Positions 4,111 through 27,175 of a stretch of DNA of 27,903 nt are shown piece after piece. The position numbers and the translations under genes were made by a program. The stretch comes from Spirogloea muscicola. Its lineage: Eukaryota; Streptophyta; Zygnematophyceae; Spirogloeales; Spirogloeaceae. The notes below the pieces were generated by a model. That model made no database searches. It saw nothing but the letters and a program-made list of their open reading frames with translations, and had not been told where the DNA came from. The stretch is taken from positions 60,237-88,139 of the forward strand of contig WELB01000151.1 in assembly GCA_009602725.1 (NCBI GenBank). Reading direction: 5' to 3'. How positions within the stretch are numbered: position 1 is the first letter of the stretch; every line of letters begins with the position of its first letter.

Positions 4111-4469
4111 ACGCTTCCAGGAGAGGGCGGTGGCTGGGAGAGGCCAGCCCAATAACAATAATGAATAAACTTCGAAGGGGCCAGGGAAAACGCTAAAACA
4201 TACACGGAATCAAGTAGTTGCGAAACTCTCAGTAAGCCCTACTAAGCCCCTATTCTCAATGGGCGAGCACTTTCTACTAAGCAGCCGCAGGTCGGAGAAA
4301 TTAGTCTCCTGGTAGCGGTAAAGGCTAAGGATCTCTGCAGCAGGACTTACTGAGTGTTCGTAGCTCCTTGGTTCCCTGCGTGCTTCAGGGCTTTCTCTGG
4401 CCTCCTTTCGAACTTTATTCTTATATTTTGGCGGCTGGCCTCTCCCAGCCACCGCCCTCCTGGAAGCGT
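4111..4469. mobile_element. Foldback (large inverted-repeat) element, about 359 bp
   Basis: The ends are near-perfect inverted repeats. The left end starts ACGCTTCCAGGAGAGGGCGG and runs to GGCCAGCC. The right end is its complement, finishing CTGGAAGCGT. Complementarity continues inward with more divergence: the left arm carries GGGGCCAGGGAAAACGC and CTCTCAGTAAGCC, the right arm carries GGCTTTCTCTGGCCTCC and GGACTTACTGAG. Hairpin-unit cores (4132-4150 and 4433-4450) form part of the arms. A 31-bp piece of a hairpin unit (about 4246-4276) appears inserted in the left arm between two ACTA copies. I find no clear target-site duplication around the whole element and no transposase. Confidence 0.7.
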
Positions 4470-4568: not shown

Positions 4569-4758
4569 TAACAAGCGACCCGGCGACATTGGAGCCGGGC
4601 TGCTCGCTCTGTTGTCCTTGGCGGCGGGACACAGCACGACGCGCAAGTCGCTGGAGGAGGTCGAGCCGCCGAGTTCCAAACGCCACGTCGACTGCAAGCG
4701 CGATAAATCCTGTCGCCAGCCCACATTGATTGAAGTAACAGCTCTCCCAAAGGAAGAC

Positions 4759-5060
4759 CGTGTACTAGAAAGAGATGTAGGCCAAATGGCCAGGTACAAA
4801 GGCAAGCACATCTAAAGATCTACATAACCTACAGCAGATTGACCCGCTCAATAACCACGGGTCAAAACATGAAGTTCACTACTCGATGCATGAATACTAG
4901 ATGCCAGGAACGGAGCCCTTCTGCCACCTACTAGAGCTCGCCCAGCTTTCTGGTGCAAGGCACTAGCCTGAGCACGCTGCAAACAGGCCGAAACTCGTCG
5001 TCGCAAGAGCGACAGATATGCAGCTGGCAAGCCCATCTCAGCCGAAAGGGACAAGGCCTG
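4759..5060 (-). mobile_element. Dispersed repeat family A, copy 1
   Basis: About 300 bp shared with 8790-9078 (opposite orientation) and, in part, with 26994-27175. One edge is CCGTGTACTAGAAAG followed by ATGTAGGCCAAATGGCCAGG. Read on the minus strand it has an open frame of 68 codons (4848-5054) containing LLRRRVSACLQRAQASALHQ, KAGRAL and ending ELHVLTRGY-stop. Copy 2 has a frameshift and stop in the same frame, so this is probably a degraded element. A pair of inverted W-boxes (TTGACCCG..CGGGTCAA, 4839-4865) overlaps the end of the frame. Confidence 0.7.
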
Positions 5061-8789: not shown

Positions 8790-9080
8790 TGTTTCCGGCT
8801 GAGATGGGCTTGCCAGCTGCAAATCTGTCGCTCTTGCGACGACGATTTTCGGCCTGTTTGCAGCGTGCTCAGGCTAGTGCATTGCACCAGCAAGCTGGGC
8901 GAGCTCTAGTTGGTGGCAGAAGGGCTCCGTTTCTGGCATCTAGTGTTAATGCATCGACTTAGTGACCCTTATGTATTGACCCGTGGTTATTGAGCGGGTC
9001 AATCTGCTGTAGGTTATGTAGGTCTTCAGATGTGCTTGCCTTTGTGCGTGGCCATTTGGACTACGTTGTTTCTTACACGG
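8790..9080 (+). mobile_element. Dispersed repeat family A, copy 2
   Basis: Reverse complement of copy 1, from GGCTGAGATGGGCTTGCCAG to the edge TTTCTTACACGG. The plus-strand frame reads LSLLRRRFSACLQRAQASAL, then HQQAGRALVGGRRAPFLASS, but a base change and insertion near GCATCGACTTAG put the LTRGY ending out of frame. The inverted W-box pair is kept (TTGACCCG..CGGGTCAA, about 8974-9000). Confidence 0.7.
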
Positions 9081-10501: not shown

Positions 10502-10872
10502 AGAAGAAAGTGCTCGCCCATTGAGGATAGGGGCTGGAAAAGCCAGCCCAAAAAAGAATGAAGAGAGTACAGCCAGGGGAAGCGCTAAGAAAAACAAGCA
10601 CACAAAGAAACTAAGCAGCTACGAATCACTCAGTAACCCCTGCTAGGCAGCCGCAGATCAGAGATGCTGGGCTCCTGGAAGAGAACAAGAGCTCCCCTAG
10701 CGTCTCTGACCTGAGGCTGCTTAGCAGGGGTGACTGAGTGATCCATAGCTGCTTTGTTTCTTTGTGCCTTTTTCTTAGCGCTTCCCCTGGCCCCCCTCGT
10801 CCTCTGTTGATTGTATTTGGGCTGGCTTTTCCAGCCCCTATTCTCAATGGGCGAGCACTTTCTTTCTGGTGC
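10502..10872. mobile_element. Foldback element, about 370 bp palindrome
   Basis: Left arm: AGAAGAAAGTGCTCGCCCAT, hairpin core 10531-10549 (GGGCTGGAAAAGCCAGCCC), CAGGGGAAGCGCTAAGAAAA, CACTCAGTAACCCCTGCTAG. Right arm: the same blocks in reverse complement, ending CAATGGGCGAGCACTTTCTT with core 10819-10837. Pairing continues almost to the centre (about 10675-10690). Each arm ends inward with the peptide remnant SDLRL-[PL]-SRG (10630-10662 on minus, 10705-10737 on plus). No transposase is present. It ends about 25 bp before the first W-box upstream of the WRKY gene. Confidence 0.75.
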
Positions 10873-10895
10873 AGAGCGCCCGCGCCCGCGTACGG

Positions 10896-11184
10896 TCAAA
10901 TACGGACAGATCTTTTGGAGTGCGGAGAGGGGCTGAGACGAAAAAGGGGCGAGGGGACACGACTGGCGGGCCTTTGACCCGGGGCGCTGACCGGAAACGC
11001 AATGGGCGGTCCGGTCAAGTAATAGGCCGAGACTCTAGGGCTTTGACCGGGTCACGGCGCTGACCGAGGGGGGTGCCCGTCACCAGTCAAAGGCCGGCGC
11101 GCTGACCGGGAGCACGGCACGGGCGGGGGAGGCCTGGGCGGCGGCACTTAGAGCCCACGGGTAAGGCGGCGGTCAAAGGGTCAA
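10896..11184. promoter_or_regulatory. Cluster of seven W-boxes upstream of the WRKY gene
   Basis: TTGAC[CT] occurs at 10974-10979 and 11043-11048 (+), and as its complement at 10896-10901, 11013-11018, 11085-11090, 11171-11176 and 11179-11184. Three GCGCTGACCG blocks (10984, 11057 and 11097 approx.) alternate with them, so part of the array is a diverged tandem repeat. By chance about 0.3 such sites would be expected in this length. W-boxes are the classical WRKY target, so auto- or cross-regulation by WRKY proteins is a reasonable inference. Confidence 0.7.
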
Positions 11185-11283
11185 CGGTCAGCGGGGGCCC
11201 CCGCGCGCAAGGCGACAAGAAAAGCGCGCCACGCCGAGGCGTACGGCCGCTTCGCCGCCCGGCTTGCTGGGCAGCTGCCCGCC

Positions 11284-11444: not shown

Positions 11445-14400
11445 ATGAGTCCCCCCCTCCTCGGGAACCCGTCCGGGCCGCGGAGCCCCGCATTGGTCCC
11501 CCTCGTCGTCGCCGCCGCCTGCGAGCCCACTTGGGCGCCCACCAAGAGGTTCCCCCCGCTGTTCAAGACCAACTGCGGCGGCGCCCGCATGGAGCCGGCG
11601 GCGCAGCCCGCCGAGCTGTCCGAGTACGAGGTGGCGCTGGTGACGGAGGCCATCCGCTATGTAGAGCGCCAGCGCAGCGGCGGCAGCGACGGCGCCGAGA
11701 GCTCGCCCGGCAGTAGCGGCAGCCAGCCGGACGCTCGCCGCTCCTCCGACCTCGTCAACAAGCTCGCCGCCACGCTCCGCCAGCTCTCTGCCAAGAAGAC
11801 GGCGGCAACAGCGGCTCAGGCTGGCGCCTCGGCCTCCTCGGCTTCTCCAGAGCCGCAGGCCCCGCCGCCGCCCACGACCTCGTCCATGGCGGCCACCGCC
11901 GGCGGCGCTGGCGCCCGTGAGAGCTTCCTCTCGCTGCCAGACCTGCAGAGCGAGGCGCTGCCGCTGGGGCCCAGCTTCGCGGCGCCGTGGGGGGACCTCG
12001 CCGGCGGCTTCTCCCTCGGCCCCAGCGGCGGCAGCGGCGGCAGCGGCAGCTTCCGCTTGGAGGATTACCTCGCCACCGGCCCCCCGGCGACGGCGGAGAG
12101 CGCCGCCGCGGCCGCCATCAATATTTCCACAACGGCGACCCCCGCTGCCGCTGCCCAGCCAGCTGTCGCCGCGGCGTCGGCGACGTCCCCGCCGGCGGCA
12201 GGCAGCTCCCCGCCGCCGCCGTTCCACGGCTTCAACCCCCTCATGGACGGCTACAGCTGGCGGAAGTACGGCCAGAAGCCCATTATCGGCGAGCCAGGCC
12301 ACCTGCGGAGCTACTACCGCTGCACACAGGCGAGCGGCTCTCTCACTTGCCACTGGCATCACAATGCGATTCTTCGTTACGGATGACATACATAAGTTGC
12401 TGTCTGAACCTTGTCGTGATCTGAGGCTCTCGGCTAGAGCCCAGCTCTGACAGTGGGTCTGGCTCCACGTGGCATGTGACGATGCAACTCCAGGCTGACT
12501 GCACGGTGAAGAAGATCGTCGAGGGTCCGCGCCACGGTCAGCCTGTCGAGATCGTCTACAAGGGCGTCCACAACCACCCGGTCCAGGTCATCAGGTCAGT
12601 GCACCGCGTCACCAGCACTGGCTGGCATTTGCACGTTGCAACGTCTGAAGCTCTTAAGCGAGTCACTTAAATTGATGACTGATGATGGCCAATCAAAAGT
12701 GTATGCAATCACTCATGAGTCTCATGTTGGACGGGCTTTGCAGGCGCATCTCAGTGGTGACGGGAGGCGAGGTGCGCGTCCAAGAGGTGGGGCCGCAAGT
12801 GGGCGGCGGCGTCGGCACCAGCGTCATGAACTACTCGCAGGGCCAGGCCATCGACCTCTCGCCGATGCTGCAGCCGAAGCGCTCCAGCAGCTTCCATGGG
12901 CTGTCGCCAAAGCAGGAGCCAGACTCGGGGCCGCTCCCCCAGCCCAACAGCGAGCTCGCGCAGCGGCTAGCTGGAGTTGCGGAGCGGCTCGACATCAAGG
13001 ACGAGGCCCCGGCCTTCACTTTCAGCGTGTCGTCGGTGGCTGACAACCCGCAGGCATACGCACTGCCGGAGCTCTCGCCGCTGCTCTCCAAGCTGCCAAT
13101 GGCCGACATAGGTGCGCGCGCATCAATGTCGACGTCCAGCCCGCTTGCGCCACCGATGACCATGGTGCCAACTCCCGGCTCAGACCCCTATCTCGACTTC
13201 CTCCAGAGCCTGAAGCCAGCACCAGAGACCTCCATGGCACCCCAACCTGCTGGTTTCCAGCCTCCCACAGATCCCTCGCCACTGACCTACTGGAGGACCG
13301 GCAGCTATGGAAGCAGTAGCGGCGGCGCAGTGCCGACACCTACCGCAGCTATGCCTTTTGCGCCAGCCTTTCCGCTGCAGGGCATGCCGCCGACGCCCAC
13401 GCTGGGCAACGCCTTCGAGGCCTCCCAGACACAGCCCACTGTCCAGCCCATTGTGACTTCTAACGAGATTCAGCAGCATCAAGTGGCAACATCAGCAAAG
13501 AGCTTCTTCGCATCGGGGCTGAGCGTGGCCCCATCCTCGACATTCCTATCACCAACTGCATCTTCAAGCGGGACTGTGAGCTTGAAGGCCGCGGAGATGG
13601 TCGTGCGCGACAGCAGTTGGACGCACTTGCCAGACGCCTCAGACTTGAGCTCAACTGGGATAGACAGTGGGAGCTCCTCTTGGGAGGGTGTCGACGAGGC
13701 CAACAGCCCCAAGCAGGGGGAGCAGCAGCAGGGTACGTCCTTGACCACGGAGCTACCACTGTTGCTTCTTTAGGAGGAGCCATGGGACCATACCTGCTAA
13801 TCTGCTGCATGATACCTTCAGGTTTCTGTCACTCATCTGACCCATCCTGTTTTGTATTCTGTTCTGCAGCAGGTAGCAGCAAACGCAAGGTTGTAATCGA
13901 CAAGGATGAAGCCTTGACTGCGTTCCCCAGCCCCACGTCACTCAAGTGAGCAACATCCCTTCACATGGACAATCTCTTGTGTCAGATTCACGACCAACTT
14001 TTCGTAGCACCTGTTCCTTCGACTTGTATGATGGATTTGGAAGGGTGTCAGCTGGTATCTCAGCAGCATTATGAAGATAATTTAGGAGCCACACCTCTGG
14101 TGACTGTGAATCGAGAATGTCCATCTCACATTAGCTGCAACACTGCCTACTTCTCTGCAGGAAGGGCAGGTTGATGGATGAAGCAGACCCCGATTCCGTG
14201 AACGAGCGGCTGGTTCTGGAGACGATCTGCGGGCCTGACGAGGTCCTGGAGGATGGCTTCGACTGGGAAAAGAAGGGCCAGAGTACCAGGAAAAGCCCGC
14301 GATCCAGGTAAATGCTTGGGTGGTCAAGCGAAGCTCCACCTTCTCACACATACCATCATTCAGTTATATAGTGGGAGAATGAGCTCTCGGCGATGCCGAA

Positions 14401-14648
14401 TTGGTGGACCTAACCTGAAATTCCTTCGTTTGGCCCTCTGCAGGTCCTACTTTCGCTGCAAGCAGCCAGGATGCCCGATACGGAAATCAGTTTCACGCTT
14501 GCAAGGCGATCCGAGGGTGGTAGTGACCACCTATGAAGGGAAGCACAACCACGGCGTTCCGAAAGATGACCAGTCAGGAGCGAGCTTGACTGAGGCGATG
14601 CCCCAGGCTGAAACTGCCGAGGCTGAGCATCAGCAGTCTTCCACATGA
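11445..14648 (+). CDS. Group I WRKY transcription factor with a divergent C-terminal WRKY motif, 6 exons
   Basis: Exons 11445-12329, 12494-12594, 12744-13732, 13873-13945, 14161-14307 and 14444-14648 give 799 aa. The ATG at 11589 (CGCATGG) would give 751 aa and is equally possible. The role is nuclear, sequence-specific DNA binding. The N-terminal domain (about residues 268-323) has WRKYGQK and a C-X4-C-X22-H-X-H zinc finger. The C-terminal domain (about 714-768) has a canonical C-X4-C-X23-H-X-H finger but reads WEKKGQS in place of WRKYGQK. The last intron splits an Arg codon just before SYFRC, the conserved position in this family, which supports the model. The linker is rich in Ser, Pro and Gln, and SSKRKV may be a nuclear signal. 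Intron 1 (12330-12493) needs a GC donor to keep C-T-Q-A-D-C; the others are GT-AG. Exon 4 could start 3 bases earlier. Confidence 0.88.
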
Positions 14649-16039: not shown

Positions 16040-16305
16040 ACCACCGTTACTCCATTGGGGCTGTTTCATTCTCCTTCTGGGCTGGCCAATCAAAGCCATA
16101 GCCCTCTTCTGGACAAATCTGCCTTCTTTCTCTTTTCATAAGCCACGCCACTGTGTGAATGCTTCTTACTTCAGGAACTGCGCTGCCAAATCAGCTGGTG
16201 GCTGTGAGCGGCCAGCCCAAAGGAATGGACAAGGTCTGAAGAGGCCGAATGGCGCAAAAAGCAGAATAATAAGCGCAAAGACGGCAGCAAGGGGGCTGTC
16301 GGTAA
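16040..16305. repeat. Two hairpin units in opposite orientations
   Basis: A plus-oriented core lies at about 16079-16097 (GGGCTGGCCAATCAAAGCC). A minus-oriented core lies at 16200-16218 (GGCTGTGAGCGGCCAGCCC), followed by AAAGGAATGGACAAGGT. The second aligns with 3890-3995 over about 105 bp. Confidence 0.7.
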
Positions 16306-16696
16306 CCTCTAGTCAGAATAAATAGAGGTAGGGGTCCCGCTCCGCCAAGCCGTGGCGTGGCACGGCAGAGCTGGATCACCGATATCTCGATAAACCTGTG
16401 CGCGTTGCACCGTCGGATGCACCTACGACGGGTCCGATCCGAAGCCGCGGCGGTCTTCGATAAGGTAAACTGCCTCCCTGGCACAACGCCAATGAAGCCA
16501 TCCAGAAGTTGTCGAGGGGCAATAAGCGACCGGGACCTGGCTCCGCCAACTTACAGGTGGTAGCGTCTCGCTAAGTCGCAGATAAGAGTAGTTCCCCCCA
16601 CCTCCCCCCATAACCGCCGCCGCTGCCGCCGTCGCCGTCGCCGCCAGAGCCGCCGGTAGAGCTGCCGCAGGCGCCGCCGCCGCTGCCGCGGGAGCC
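16306..16696 (+). promoter_or_regulatory. Profilin upstream region
   Basis: The 390 bp before the profilin ATG contain a TATA-like AATAAATA (about 16317-16324) and, just before the start, GCC-rich sequence typical of the gene leaders in this window. The TATA assignment is weak; no transcript start can be fixed. Confidence 0.3.
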
Positions 16697-17480
16697 ATGT
16701 CGTGGCAGTCCTACGTCGATGACCACCTCATGTGCGACCTGCCGGGCGGCGGCATGCTCACTTCGGCCGCCATCCTCGGCCACGACGGCGTCGTGTGGGC
16801 CAAGAGCGACAAGTTCCCCGACGTGAGGGCCGCCGCCGCCGCCGCCGCCGCCGTCCGGCAAAGGAAGACGTCCGGCAAAGGAAACGATCGGAAGTGCTGC
16901 GGCTGAGGCTTCGCTGCGTGTGGACTGTGCTCCGCCTGGCGGCGTTGCCTTGCAGGTGACGGCGGCAGAGGTGTCGGCCATCATGGGCGAGTTCAACAAC
17001 CCCGGCCATCTGGCGACGACGGGCCTCTACCTCGGCGGCGTCAAGTACATGATGGTGGCCGGCGAGGCCGGCGCCGTCCTGCGAGGGAAGATGGTGCGCC
17101 AGCGAAAGCCTCTCCTGCGCCTTCTCCATGGCCTCCAGATCGTTAGCCTCTGACGGTAATTCCGTCTCTTCCACCTGTGCGTGGCCAGGGTGCTGGTGGT
17201 ACGACCGTCAAGAAGACGTCCAGGTCTGTCCACCAAGTCCAGGCCACAGCAGCTGGCGCTTTGCACCTCCAACAAATGACTAATCTTACTTGCTCAATGG
17301 TCTCTTGTAATTGCGTAACTATTGCTTTTGCTTAATCTTAAGCTTAATCTGCTGACATTGCGCGTTTCTGTGCCGTGCAGCGCCCTCATCATCGGCATCT
17401 ACGATGAGCCCGTCACTCCTGGCGACTGCAACGTCTGTGTTGAGAACCTCGGCGACTACCTGATTGGCCAGAACCTTTGA
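16697..17480 (+). CDS. Profilin, 4 exons
   Basis: Exons 16697-16822, 16956-17093, 17189-17223 and 17381-17480 give 132 aa, the usual plant profilin length. Profilin binds monomeric actin, poly-proline proteins and phosphoinositides in the cytoplasm. Seen in order: [11 protein letters not shown] with Trp3 and Tyr6 of the poly-proline site and the plant-conserved Cys13, the central [15 protein letters not shown] strand, [19 protein letters not shown], then [17 protein letters not shown] and a C-terminal helix [12 protein letters not shown]. All introns are GT-AG. Introns 1 and 2 fall near the two positions usual in plant profilins; intron 3, splitting the Ser codon of KKTS, appears extra. Intron 1 begins with a (GCC)n run directly after the donor, and retention would add only 26 codons before a stop. 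It is convergent with the EXORDIUM-like gene. Confidence 0.93.
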
Positions 17481-18059: not shown

Positions 18060-20904
18060 TCAGGTGTCAAGCCAATTGGGGCCAGCATTGATGACGCACT
18101 TGAAGTGGCGCCGGTTCCAGTTTAGCTGGGCAGGAAATTGAACAGCAAGCAGATATCTGTGAGCATCACTTGACAGCTACCACTGTTTACTTGTCACCAT
18201 GCCCCAAAGCTCAACATGCAATGCAGCTGACCAGGACAACAAGGACCTGGTCAGACTTGTTGCCCGCATCTCTTGCAGGTGCAGAGGAGGGCTTGAGGTA
18301 ACCTGGACAAGGTACTTAGTGTCGTTGACGCCGATGAGATTGTAGTAAGCCTTCTCTGGAGGGTCTGAGTAGCTGATGGGCCCGTATGTCCACTCGCATA
18401 AGTCCGCATTCTCAATCTCCGTTCCCTACTCAAGACAAGACAGACAAATTGGAGAGAGTAGCACAAACATCAAGTTGATTAGGATAGTAACAACCAGCTA
18501 TGCCAGACACATGACAACACAGGGCAGACTTAATATGTTCATCAACATCATCAACATTGTTAAAACAATCATGGTCACGGCGTGCTATCTGGCACATTCG
18601 CCATGCAAAGCAGCATTAAACAGCCACTTTGGATGTAGCACATTAGAAGAGTTGTGTATTAGGACACTGCATTTGACAAGTGAAAGGAGAACCTCATGGT
18701 GAAGTACGCCAGAAGCTTGCACTACAAACAGCTACTTTTCAATTGTTGAGGTGAGTGGAAGTTTGGCCAGAACCTTCACACAGTAGCTGGGCGTGTCCTT
18801 AGGCCCATGGAAGGGGTTGGTTGCAATCTCTGCAAGCTCGTGCGCAAACATGTTAACGACAGCGTCAACGCCGCGGTCGCCATTAGGCGGCACCCATGTA
18901 ATATCAATCTGTGCAAACGTGCAGTAGATGGGGCACTGCGTGATGGGGTTCCCAATCCAGGCATATGCCAGCTTCATGCCCTGCTCAGAGCAACACCAAA
19001 ATGAGCAGCTCTCTGAGAGCACAGGGCCTGCAGAGGGCGCAAACTTGAGCAGGTTATGCTACTGAGACTGTCTAGCAAGGAGTTGGAAGCCGTCCTGCGA
19101 TCCCTTAGCAAACCACAATTACGTTTCCGAAAAACATCACTTCACCCTCACTTTACAGAGGAGGACAAACCAGCTCCATATTAACAGCGTGCTGTGTGAT
19201 AGGAGTTTATTGTCATACATTGATGGGAGCAGACGTGTGGTAGCCGCAGTACACATAGCAAGAGTCCTGGACATACACGTCCGGGCTTGTCAGCACCATG
19301 TACGCGCCCTGCAAGACGAGCGGTCACAAACATCAGCGTCAGAGTGCCCATTGCAGGGCAATATTCTTCGAGGTATGAGGACAAGCAAGGTCTCACATAG
19401 CTTTCTCATTGCATTGAGATCTGTCCGAGGAATAATGGAATATGCACATCTGACTTGGCGGATGCATGAACTGCAGGATGTACGCCAGGATCGAGCGGGA
19501 GGCTCCTCTTGTTGGCACTGTTTGTGGCGTGTGCCACGATTCTCCTAATGTCCGCCTGGCACAGGGCTCCTTGCGCAGATAGACTTAGACAATGGCCGTG
19601 TGCATGCAATGTGACATGCTCATGAGCTGCTCAATAATACACACGAGCATCCTGCTTAACACCTCCAAACATCAATTTGAGCGACTTGCCTGTGTGAGGG
19701 GGCTGGCCTTCGTCCCCGCAGCAGGGTAACATGAATACCGGTCCACGATGTCGGCGGCGTACGTCACATTTGCCGTAACGCGGGTCCCATTGAAATTCTG
19801 ATAATTGTTGACGTTAATGTCCCACCACCCGCGGACCGTGGCTGCGCCGTCGATGTATGGGTTGCTGCGCTCGCAGTGACAAAAACTTCGAATCTTTGGC
19901 GACGAGTAGCGCTTTAACAGATGCGCAAAGCTTGGTCTGCTGAGGGAGCAGACTTTTGACAACGTGCGACTGAATGCTAATTGGTATCTGTTGATTCACC
20001 TCTCAATGCCACGTCACAAGAGTACGAGGCCCAACCTCGTGCCAATGGAGTCGACGAATGTCCGGATAATCTGGCGCTGGTCGCTCTTCCACGCGCCATA
20101 GTAGATGACGTATACGTTGAAGGGTGTAGTATAGAGCTCGCCGCCCTGATACTGCAGGTACGGGTAAAGGCCAGCAACAATGTCTGGCTCGTCCTTGCCC
20201 AGTGGTTCAGTCTTGGCTGCCTCTGCAGTGAATCGCTCAGCAGCCGACACATTGCCCTGTAAAATGCCGTCAAGATGTTGTCAGTGAAATTAGTGATAAG
20301 TTTAGTCTGTCTGTGTTTGCTTGAGGCAAGTAGTGCACAAGCTGCGGCTAGGATGCAGGAGACGTGCACCTGCTGGCTGGCCACGAGAGCGGCGGCAGAG
20401 GCGAGCTGCTCTCGCTTGTACACCGACGAGCCGTGAATGTGGACGTAGCCGTTGCTGGCCTGCGCCAGCCACTGGGCCATGGAGCCCTTAGTCACGCCGC
20501 CGCTGCCGGCGCCGGTGCCGGGAGCGGCGAGCTCCTGCACCTCCACTGGCGGGCCTCCGCCTGCCGCCGGCGGCGGCTGCTGCGGTGTCAGCGGCGGCGG
20601 CGGCGTCGAGCCTTCCACGACGCCCAGCGACGACGGCTCCAAGACCAACCTGCGCATCGAGGAGAAACGCTGCCATAAGCGACGCAGCACGGCGCCCCGG
20701 TGAGATTCACAGCTTTGAGCAAGATGAGTCTGCAGCTGGCGACAGCCCAAGCTCGCCACATTCGCAGCGCGCCGGTCTGACTCAAGTCGCACTTGCCAGA
20801 GATTCTGGCCCAAGTTGCACTCACCAGGATTCCGCGCAAATTGCAGAGCAGAGGAGTGCCGTCGTCGTCGCCACCCCCCAATGCAGTCGCGACATCGACG
20901 CCAT
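18060..20904 (-). CDS. EXORDIUM-like (phosphate-induced protein 1 family) secreted protein, 8 exons
   Basis: Exons in gene order: 20904-20825, 20649-20370, 20256-20036, 19864-19690, 19308-19219, 18980-18780, 18425-18303 and 18125-18060. They give 411 aa; angiosperm members are about 310. The family is apoplastic and linked to growth and nutrient or brassinosteroid responses; its biochemistry is unknown. Exon 1 encodes a clear signal peptide with core VATTTALLCSAICA. Exon 2 is a Pro/Gly/Ala-rich stretch not typical of the family. The family core follows: NVYVIYYGAWKSDQRQIIR, RGWWDINVNNY, VLTSPDVYVQDSCYVYCGYH, AYAWIGNPITQCP, WVPPNGDRGVDAVVNMFAHE, ATNPF, then AYYNLIGVNDTKYLVQLNWN and a final Cys region. 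Intron 4 (19689-19309) needs a GC donor in perfect context (CAG|GCAAGT); the other six are GT-AG. The start is fixed by the signal peptide and phase. The C-terminal exons are the least certain. Confidence 0.87.
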
Positions 20905-23371: not shown

Positions 23372-26300
23372 TCAAGGCCTCCCTGAAGGAGCAAACTGAG
23401 GCCCGGCTCTTCCAGCAGCAGCTCTCATCGCCTTAGACTGAGCTAGCAGCTCATCATAGTTCTGCATAAGTAGCAGCAAAATCGGGTCAATTCAATGCAT
23501 CCGCACCTCATACCTAGGTCAAGTGCTGCCTGCTGCCTTCGGTCATGCTGTAGATGCGTTTAAGGAGTTGCTGACTGAACAAGCTCACTGAAGCCTGCAA
23601 CATCTGAGGAGAGACCTACACCCACTCATATCAGTCTCTTTTACACAGCACCTAACTGAAGGCTGGAGTTCGGGAATAACAGCTTTACCTTCTTGTCCAT
23701 GGCAACACCACGGCTTTCAATGACCTTGTCTGCCAAACCATACTCAATGGCCTCCTTCGCACGGAAGTACCTGCACGAAGACGGACCATCACTTCAGCAT
23801 GTAACAAATGTGCAGCTGCTCTCTTCCTCATAAGCTTGTCAAGGATGCCTCATGCCTCAAGCCTCAATAATTCTAGATAATCAAGGAGGTCACTGATCGA
23901 GGCGTCATATAACCTAGGCCTTTGGATGTCCTTTGCTATTTCGTTCCATGGCTTCCCTGTGCCCTGGGCCAGAAGACCAATGTAGTAATTGGTGTTCGCA
24001 TCGAGCTCCTTCGCCTGCAAACAATATTACAGAAGTCTCATGTCAAGTAAATTTCAGAGCTTCATTAAATACACCATAATGTCAAGAACGCAAGCAAGCA
24101 ACAGCAGTGACCAAAGATGCTGCTAAGGGCCCTCATGTCAAGCACAAATATTGATGAGGTATGCTACCTAGAATTCAAGGTGCATACCTTGATCCACATG
24201 TCCGTAGCATTCCCGCTTGACTGGCTAACTTTTGGCGAATACAATTTAGCTGCACAAGCGCGCAAAGATTTCAACAACTCCCTAAGACCATGTAAGGAGG
24301 ACTCAGCGTAGTAATAAGATGGAGCACAGGCAGGTCCAATGCATAACATGGTCAGAGCTTTCAAAGCAGAACTTACTAACAGAGTTGGGTTGCACAGCTC
24401 GGCAACCCTTGTCTCCAATTGTCAGCAGCATAGCCGCTTGGCCAAAAGCCATCCCGCAATTCACAGTGAAGACTTTGGGCTTCACATACTGCAGGTATAA
24501 CCACAAGGACTTCTGTCACTGGGGTGTGCCCTGGGTGCACACTTGGCAAGGTACATGTAATCTAGCATAAGATGATGGCCTCTACGAAGAATGATGACAA
24601 TTGAAGCAACACTTAACAGCATGAACTCCTAGCCCTAGGAGCGCTCAGTAAGATGGTGGCCTCTATGAAGAGGGATAATCATGGACGCAGCACTTCAAGG
24701 CATTGACTTGTAGGCTAGGAGCCCATGCCATGATTTCTCCTGCAGAGACTCTCCTGCACTGACTCTACACTCACCGCAATTGTATCAGCTATTGCATAAG
24801 CCTCAGTCTCAAAACCTATGCTCTCTCTCTTGTCATTCTGCCAGCAACAAAATAACAAATATCAGGACAACTTGACTTCGGCAAGGCACTCATACAAGCC
24901 ATCACATACAGACTGACTAGGACTGTGAGTTCACAGTAGTTGCAGTACAGTACATGTCAACAGCAAAGAATATGTTACCTGTGTGCCTGGTGAGTTGATG
25001 TAGAAGTAAATGGGCTTTTGAGGATTGTCATAGTCCAACCAAAGTAACTCTGCTATGATCAACTCAGTAACAGCAGGAACGATCTGCTCATATGTAGATA
25101 GGCACACCAGGCGAATGTGGTCAGAAGCTTGTCAAGCCGACATTGACAGAGGGTTCTAGATCAATCAGCCTCTCATATACTACAGAATGCTGCCTTGTAT
25201 GGGTGCACATAAGTGGCAGCTCACTGCCACTCTCTAAGCATTGGAGAAACGGTGCCTCAATCGCACGAAGTGTTGATACAATTTTTGTGCTTCGAGTCAA
25301 GAACCTGATACTTCAGCCATGCAGCTTATGAAAGCACAGTTATGTTACCGGCATGCCCAAGTAGCATATCCGTGCATCCAACAGAAGAGAGGGAAGGTCG
25401 GGAGGAGCAGTCTTTGGCCTTCCATAGCCGCCTCCGCCTCTGTACATGTTGACACTCATGCTCAACCGAGATGGTGCATCACTGAGCGTGGACAAGTTCC
25501 ACATGCCTGTTCCCTCCTTGTAATGTCTGGCTGAGGATATAGTCTCCTGCATAAGGACAATTTGATTGTGCTATAAGTGCCAAACGCCTCTCATGACCAT
25601 TGCTTGACACCTCTGTGACTAGTTAATTGACAAGGTGCCAACTAATTGTATTCGCCACTGCTCGGAGAGTTTGCAACCTATGCAGCTGCAGCTGTCTATG
25701 AATGTCACTTCAGAACAGACCAATCTCTTCCTCCCACTAGTATTGTCATGTAGTGCACCAACAACCAGTAGACTGCACTGTGAATGCTTGCTATAACGGG
25801 GCTGGTACAGAGTCATGTAGTGCACCAACAACCACTAGACTGCACTGTGAATGCTCGCTATAACGGGGCGGGTACAGAGATGCTCATAAGGCCAACAGAA
25901 GCAAGTGGTACAGAAGGGGCAGACACTGTTATTTGAGATAGGAGGCTGAGGACAGTACAGGAGTGACAATGTTGCTCTGCCGGGAAATAGGATTGTCCTC
26001 CGTCATGAACATATCCATCTGACTTGCCGTCAAGCCATACAGAGACTGTGGTATATTCTTGAAATTCTCCGCCACTGAAGAAATGAGGGAAGGGGCATGT
26101 CAGTAGGTCAGAGGTTTACGCAAATAAATGATAGTAATATGTGCACTATTATACAGCAATGTATATGCTGAAGAGTCCTCACTGGGAAGGGAAAAAGCTG
26201 AAGGGCTTCTTATGTCCCACAAATTCAATCATTCCGGTCGATAGGAGGATCACATCCATGTTGCAGCATCAACGCGGCTGGCTACACCTTCGTTAATTAA

Positions 26301-26993: not shown

Positions 26994-27175
26994 ACCCCGT
27001 GTATTAGAAAGAAATGTAGGCCAAATGGCCAGGGACAAAGGCAAGCACATCTAAAGATCTACATAACCTACGGCAGATTGACCCGCTCAATAACCACGGG
27101 TCAAAACATGAAGGTCACTACTCGATGCATGAATACTAGATGCCAGGAACGGAGCCCTTCTGCCACCTACTAGAG
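26994..27175 (-). mobile_element. Dispersed repeat family A, copy 3 (left part)
   Basis: Starts CCCCGTGTATTAGAAAG and matches copy 1 nearly base for base to CCACCTACTAGAG. The matching sequence then stops and a hairpin unit begins. On the minus strand the frame reads GGRRAPFLASSIHASSSDLH and VLTRGY-stop. The inverted W-box pair is kept (about 27078-27105). Confidence 0.75.

Follow-up and report, generated by a model that had tools for sequence, protein, structure and literature searches.

The WRKY gene and its exons

We analysed a stretch of DNA of 27,903 nucleotides, hereafter the window, and looked at a gene coding for a WRKY protein on its plus strand. The gene was modelled with six exons, from 11445 to 14648, which join without an internal stop and encode 799 amino acids. 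The features on which the analysis relies are listed below.

10894-11190, both strands: W-box cluster ahead of the gene, with 7 TTGACC/T and 11 TGACC sites (assessed by shuffles)
11445-12329, plus strand: exon 1 (continuous frame in the model; GC donor directly after)
12258-12278, plus strand: canonical WRKYGQK of the N-terminal domain (open frame, six-frame and DNA scans)
12494-12594, plus strand: exon 2 (open frame, Pfam and PDB comparison)
12744-13732, plus strand: exon 3, a long linker whose 330 residues include 7 Ser-Pro sites (open frame)
13873-13945, plus strand: exon 4, a linker with the basic stretch SSKRK (open frame)
14161-14307, plus strand: exon 5, 147 nt, with the flanking strand RLVLETI and the altered heptapeptide (open frame)
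14264-14284, plus strand: altered C-terminal heptapeptide WEKKGQS, encoded by TGG GAA AAG AAG GGC CAG AGT (frame through all six exons)
14308-14443, plus strand: PR intron of the C-terminal WRKY domain, phase 2 in a conserved Arg codon (GT-AG)
14444-14648, plus strand: exon 6 (open frame, Pfam and PDB comparison)

The ATG at 11589 could be an alternative start codon. Intron 1 (12330-12493) is GC-AG and the other four are GT-AG. Intron 1 is probably in use, since its removal unites the two conserved parts of the N-terminal WRKY domain; without this less common type of splicing, the domain would not be whole. Exon 5 is symmetric (phase 2 to 2), and its skipping would leave an in-frame zinc finger without the heptapeptide strand.

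The protein has the architecture of group I WRKY proteins

We compared the protein with Pfam and with the proteins of the PDB. The Pfam WRKY family (PF03106) matched two stretches, at 77.5 bits for the N-terminal domain and 64.2 bits for the C-terminal domain, each alone above the cut-off of 21 bits. NCBIfam, an annotation library for prokaryotes, gave no match. In the PDB, the best matches of the C-terminal domain were the C-terminal domains of group I proteins (AtWRKY4, 74.1 bits; AtWRKY33, 73.1 bits; AtWRKY1, 73.0 bits), as against 63.7 to 48.9 bits for the single-domain WRKY18, 17 and 11 and 43.7 to 47.3 bits for group I N-terminal domains. The N-terminal domain was closest to the N-terminal domains of group I (AtWRKY2, 68.4 bits; AtWRKY33, 66.4 bits). 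Because each domain best matches its group I counterpart, the predicted product has the group I architecture, with the domains in the group I order. Of the features that define this group, we found two WRKY domains, WRKYGQK in the N-terminal one, a CX4-5CX22-23HXH finger in both and the PR intron in the C-terminal one; WRKYGQK or a near variant is missing from the C-terminal domain, where WEKKGQS differs at three positions. By homology, the predicted C-terminal domain is classed as a degenerate, non-canonical WRKY domain.

We searched for relatives with protein patterns in a viral collection, using each domain (24 and 3 matched stretches) and a nine-row alignment (87), and in a prokaryote collection, using the same alignment (16). 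None of these matches was confirmed as a relative.

The N-terminal domain keeps all ten DNA-contact positions

The earlier note on this DNA, made from the letters, had described the N-terminal domain as fully canonical. This is right for the heptapeptide, for the zinc finger (C-X4-C-X22-H-X-H) and for the ten DNA contacts listed by Xu et al., where the aligned domain is identical throughout to AtWRKY1-N, 2-N and 33-N, whose structures are bound to W-box DNA (PDB 6j4e, 6j4f and 6j4g). It goes too far in two respects, since the domain depends on an internal GC-AG intron and its loop from WRKYGQK to RSYY is one residue longer than in these three Arabidopsis domains. Among the 34 positions that are invariant in three Arabidopsis N-terminal domains, 26 are kept, 12/16 and 14/18 on the two sides.

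The C-terminal domain has an altered heptapeptide on a kept scaffold

In the C-terminal domain, three residues of WRKYGQK are replaced: R2 by E, Y4 by K and K7 by S. Each changed codon needs at least two substitutions, which makes at least six nucleotide changes within 21 bases. Between the heptapeptide and SYFRC, the loop lacks one residue in comparison with the C-terminal domains of AtWRKY4, AtWRKY33 and AtWRKY1 (PDB 1wj2/2lex, 8k31 and 2ayd), and the loop preceding the heptapeptide is one residue longer than in AtWRKY33. As in these same group I domains, the zinc finger is C-X4-C-X23-H-X-H, with all four zinc ligands present. The motif TTYEGKHNH is also that of these domains, AtWRKY1 having KHDH, and the flanking strand consists of R followed by three hydrophobic residues, like that of AtWRKY33. 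The PR intron, known for group I (PMC4350883), cuts the conserved Arg codon between AG and G. All this agrees with the earlier note, which had placed WEKKGQS at exactly 14264-14284 with the Arg, the Tyr and the final Lys changed, had seen the spacing to SYFRC as one residue short, and had seen the finger and the phase-2 Arg intron as intact; reading the six-exon frame, aligning the domain with its Arabidopsis counterparts and inspecting the GT-AG borders led us to the same description.

Then, we looked at how the changes are distributed. Of the positions that do not vary among three Arabidopsis C-terminal domains, 8/17 are kept before the PR intron and 18/23 after it, a contrast that is borderline (Fisher p = 0.052) and has three sequences as its reference. 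Other changes, such as Y to F, H to S and E to S, lie outside the heptapeptide. The changes thus seem to lean, at borderline strength, towards the strand that faces the DNA and towards its loop, yet they extend beyond. This extension is what relaxed decay would produce, that is, the degeneration of a redundant C-terminal domain in which the DNA strand goes first and the finger next. Decay also agrees with the C-terminal domain having no known partner, and with binding by the N-terminal domain being able to suffice, for which AtWRKY1-N is a precedent (PMC7026264). Contrarily, the four zinc ligands, TTYEGKHNH, the splice sites of the PR intron and the flanking strand are all intact, and GC3 in exons 5 and 6 (0.776 and 0.609) exceeds the GC content of introns 4 and 5 (0.460 and 0.493). 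We regard decay, which may be recent, as a less likely explanation.

W-box reading by the C-terminal domain is expected to be lost

We wanted to define what the three replacements mean for DNA binding. For this, contact residues, like the docking residues below, were assigned from alignments, using the contact list of AtWRKY1-N (PMC7026264). The C-terminal domain is identical at 6/10 of these contacts; R2, Y4 and K7 are lost and one Lys is replaced by Arg. It retains the Trp, Lys3, Gly and Gln of the heptapeptide, together with two contact residues of the following strand, an Arg and a Tyr.

Published mutants bear on the lost positions. The AtWRKY1-N mutants R2A, K3A and Y4A retained DNA binding, and in the domains mutated at K7 in that study binding was gone with Ala, Gln or Arg at this position, except for a slight K7R band of AtWRKY2-N (PMC7026264). 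In cotton GhWRKY17, Y252A and K255A abolished binding and R250A nearly eliminated it (PMC12905487). The K7 change is the sole one reported as damaging in both of these papers, where the K7 mutants described were made in N-terminal and group IId domains, with no group I C-terminal domain among them and no Ser among the replacements. Going by these mutants of other proteins, a C-terminal domain that combines R2E, Y4K and K7S should be unable to read W-boxes.

Could this domain read something else? A changed specificity would mean that it binds another DNA sequence, or DNA non-specifically. Its net charge (+7 over 60 residues) is like that of the C-terminal domain of AtWRKY4 (+6 over the matching 61), the contact residues listed above as retained would still be available, and altered heptapeptides exist elsewhere, for example WKNNGNT (PMC4350883) and seven C-terminal forms (PMC5112548). 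Nevertheless, the Arg replaced by Glu is one that touches the phosphate backbone, and the base-reading Lys7 is gone, the very residue whose mutants K7A, K7Q and K7R lost W-box binding but for one slight band. We consider a changed specificity improbable.

An error of sequence, assembly or gene model masking a normal heptapeptide is very improbable in spite of the two N of the window, one of which (11360) is near the gene start, because at least six nucleotide changes would have to be explained in a frame that stays intact, because AG and GT splice sites border exon 5, and because the N-terminal heptapeptide was the sole match both in a six-frame scan of the window (at most two substitutions from WRKYGQK-type motifs, Trp kept) and in a DNA scan with degenerate WRKYGQK codons (at most three mismatches). 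The earlier note had said that its reading would fall with a transcript using another exon that restores WRKYGQK; an alternative exon or frame of this kind was ruled out in the window by the same two scans.

A possible VQ-type docking surface stays mostly hydrophobic

SIB1, a VQ protein, binds AtWRKY33 at an extra strand and the loop preceding the C-terminal heptapeptide, which are dispensable for DNA binding (PMC11088704). More generally, Arabidopsis and soybean VQ proteins bind group I proteins at the C-terminal domain and group IIc proteins at the one domain that they have (PMC5052590). The corresponding strand is recognisable here, RLVLETI as compared to RIVVQTT in AtWRKY33. In the alignment, 9/10 of the docking positions named for AtWRKY33 are hydrophobic, and the tenth, the equivalent of I358, is Asp. 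Changing both I358 and I360 of AtWRKY33 to Ala abolished SIB1 binding, and I358D was still able to bind a SIB1 peptide in which an Arg compensated for the change (PMC11088704). A search of the six frames of the window for the VQ pattern gave no match. These alignments are suggestive of a C-terminal domain that may serve as a docking platform for VQ-type partners. The recruitment of this domain for another function, raised in the earlier note, is in line with the nine hydrophobic positions and is weakened by the Asp at the key one.

A cluster of W-boxes lies upstream of the gene

Seven W-boxes within about 290 bases, at 10894-11190, make this the densest spot of the window. In 2000 local dinucleotide shuffles, none reached 7 TTGACC/T or 11 TGACC sites (means 0.17 and 0.50). 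As the interval had been chosen by eye, the whole window was also shuffled in 500-base blocks (n=500) to allow for this choice, and the maxima per 320 bases were 5 TTGACC/T and 7 TGACC. Neither TTGACC/T nor TGACC sites were found at 16051-16695, before the ATG (16697) of the profilin gene. The cluster fits a control of the gene by WRKY proteins, possibly by its own product, and it could serve other WRKY proteins.

Comparison with other altered WRKY proteins

In a word search of the papers available to us, the heptapeptide WEKKGQS did not occur. Two-domain proteins of diplomonads have a C-terminal WKKYGHK, also off WRKYGQK, and are excluded from group I by the authors (PMC4350883). In plants, the altered C-terminal forms WRKN, WRKD, FRKY, WIKY, WRIY, WWKN and WWKS are reported in a paper that calls single domains C-terminal too, so that these seven forms need not come from two-domain proteins (PMC5112548). 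WEKK is absent from that list, and here three positions are changed, including the last Lys. Altered C-terminal heptapeptides are already on record, and WEKKGQS adds a further form to those cited here. In rice WRKY102/103 and O. barthii WRKY96, the N-terminal reader alone is left in a former group I protein; there, the C-terminal domain is wholly lost, whereas here its scaffold is kept (PMC8295372). Finally, the two domains diverge unequally in the WRKY genes of the green plant Prasinoderma coloniale, as they do here, but it is the N-terminal domains that diverge, the reverse of the present pattern (PMC7455551).

A proposed division of roles between the two WRKY domains

Altogether, we favour, with a probability of about 0.6, a group I WRKY factor, from a plant-type eukaryote, whose N-terminal domain is left to read W-boxes sequence-specifically and whose C-terminal domain is kept as a module. 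The C-terminal domain still has its zinc ligands and a basic charge, as well as most of the edge on which cofactors would dock; three side chains that read DNA are gone, the most important being the last Lys of the heptapeptide. To judge from the mutants of other WRKY domains, it would be without useful W-box affinity. It would probably still fold. The N-terminal domain would bind W-boxes, possibly those of its own promoter (autoregulation), and the C-terminal domain may have been retained for VQ-type partners or for weak non-specific contact with DNA. A stricter split of jobs, with an N-terminal domain reading W-boxes that include the seven of its own promoter and a C-terminal domain turned into a dedicated non-reading, cofactor-docking zinc scaffold, is a tentative proposal, which we hold doubtful in this full form.

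The C-terminal domain is usually viewed as the main DNA-binding domain of group I WRKY proteins, and the earlier note started from this view to propose a swap of roles. AtWRKY1-N, however, has an affinity for W-box DNA about 13-fold that of AtWRKY1-C (0.1 vs 1.3 uM; PMC7026264). Going by this pair, C-terminal dominance in DNA binding is not general among group I proteins. The proposal is supported as regards the C-terminal loss predicted by the mutants and the ten N-terminal contacts; the word swap is overstated, because AtWRKY1-N already outbinds AtWRKY1-C. What happened in this lineage may be no more than the loss of a second DNA reader, with an N-terminal domain that was perhaps sufficient beforehand. 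To our knowledge, the reason why group I WRKY proteins have two domains is not settled. With a canonical N-terminal domain and a C-terminal domain predicted to be reader-less on an intact scaffold, this protein would be a natural case, needing no mutagenesis, in which the reading of DNA is uncoupled from the docking of cofactors, and it would allow the two to be measured separately.

Neighbouring genes and repeats

The profilin gene lies downstream of the WRKY gene on the same strand, at 16592-17153, with PF00235 in two open frames. A carbohydrate esterase of the sialic-acid type (PF03629) was found at 62-1237, and a Phi_1 fragment (PF04674) at 18732-19058 on the minus strand. Profilin and Phi_1 matches next to a WRKY gene point to a green plant as the probable source of the DNA. 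An inverted repeat with 49-nt arms (98%) is located at 10504-10864, directly upstream of the W-box cluster; it has relatives at 4245, 9583, 21633 and 27174, and together they are perhaps a small family of DNA transposons. A DNA pattern derived from a repeat had 0 matches in the viral collection. Moreover, a direct repeat of 179 nt is present at 4758-4936 and 26997-27175 (97% identity), with inverted relatives near 8793-9067, and a tandem duplication of 67 nt, 96% identical, lies at 25745-25878.
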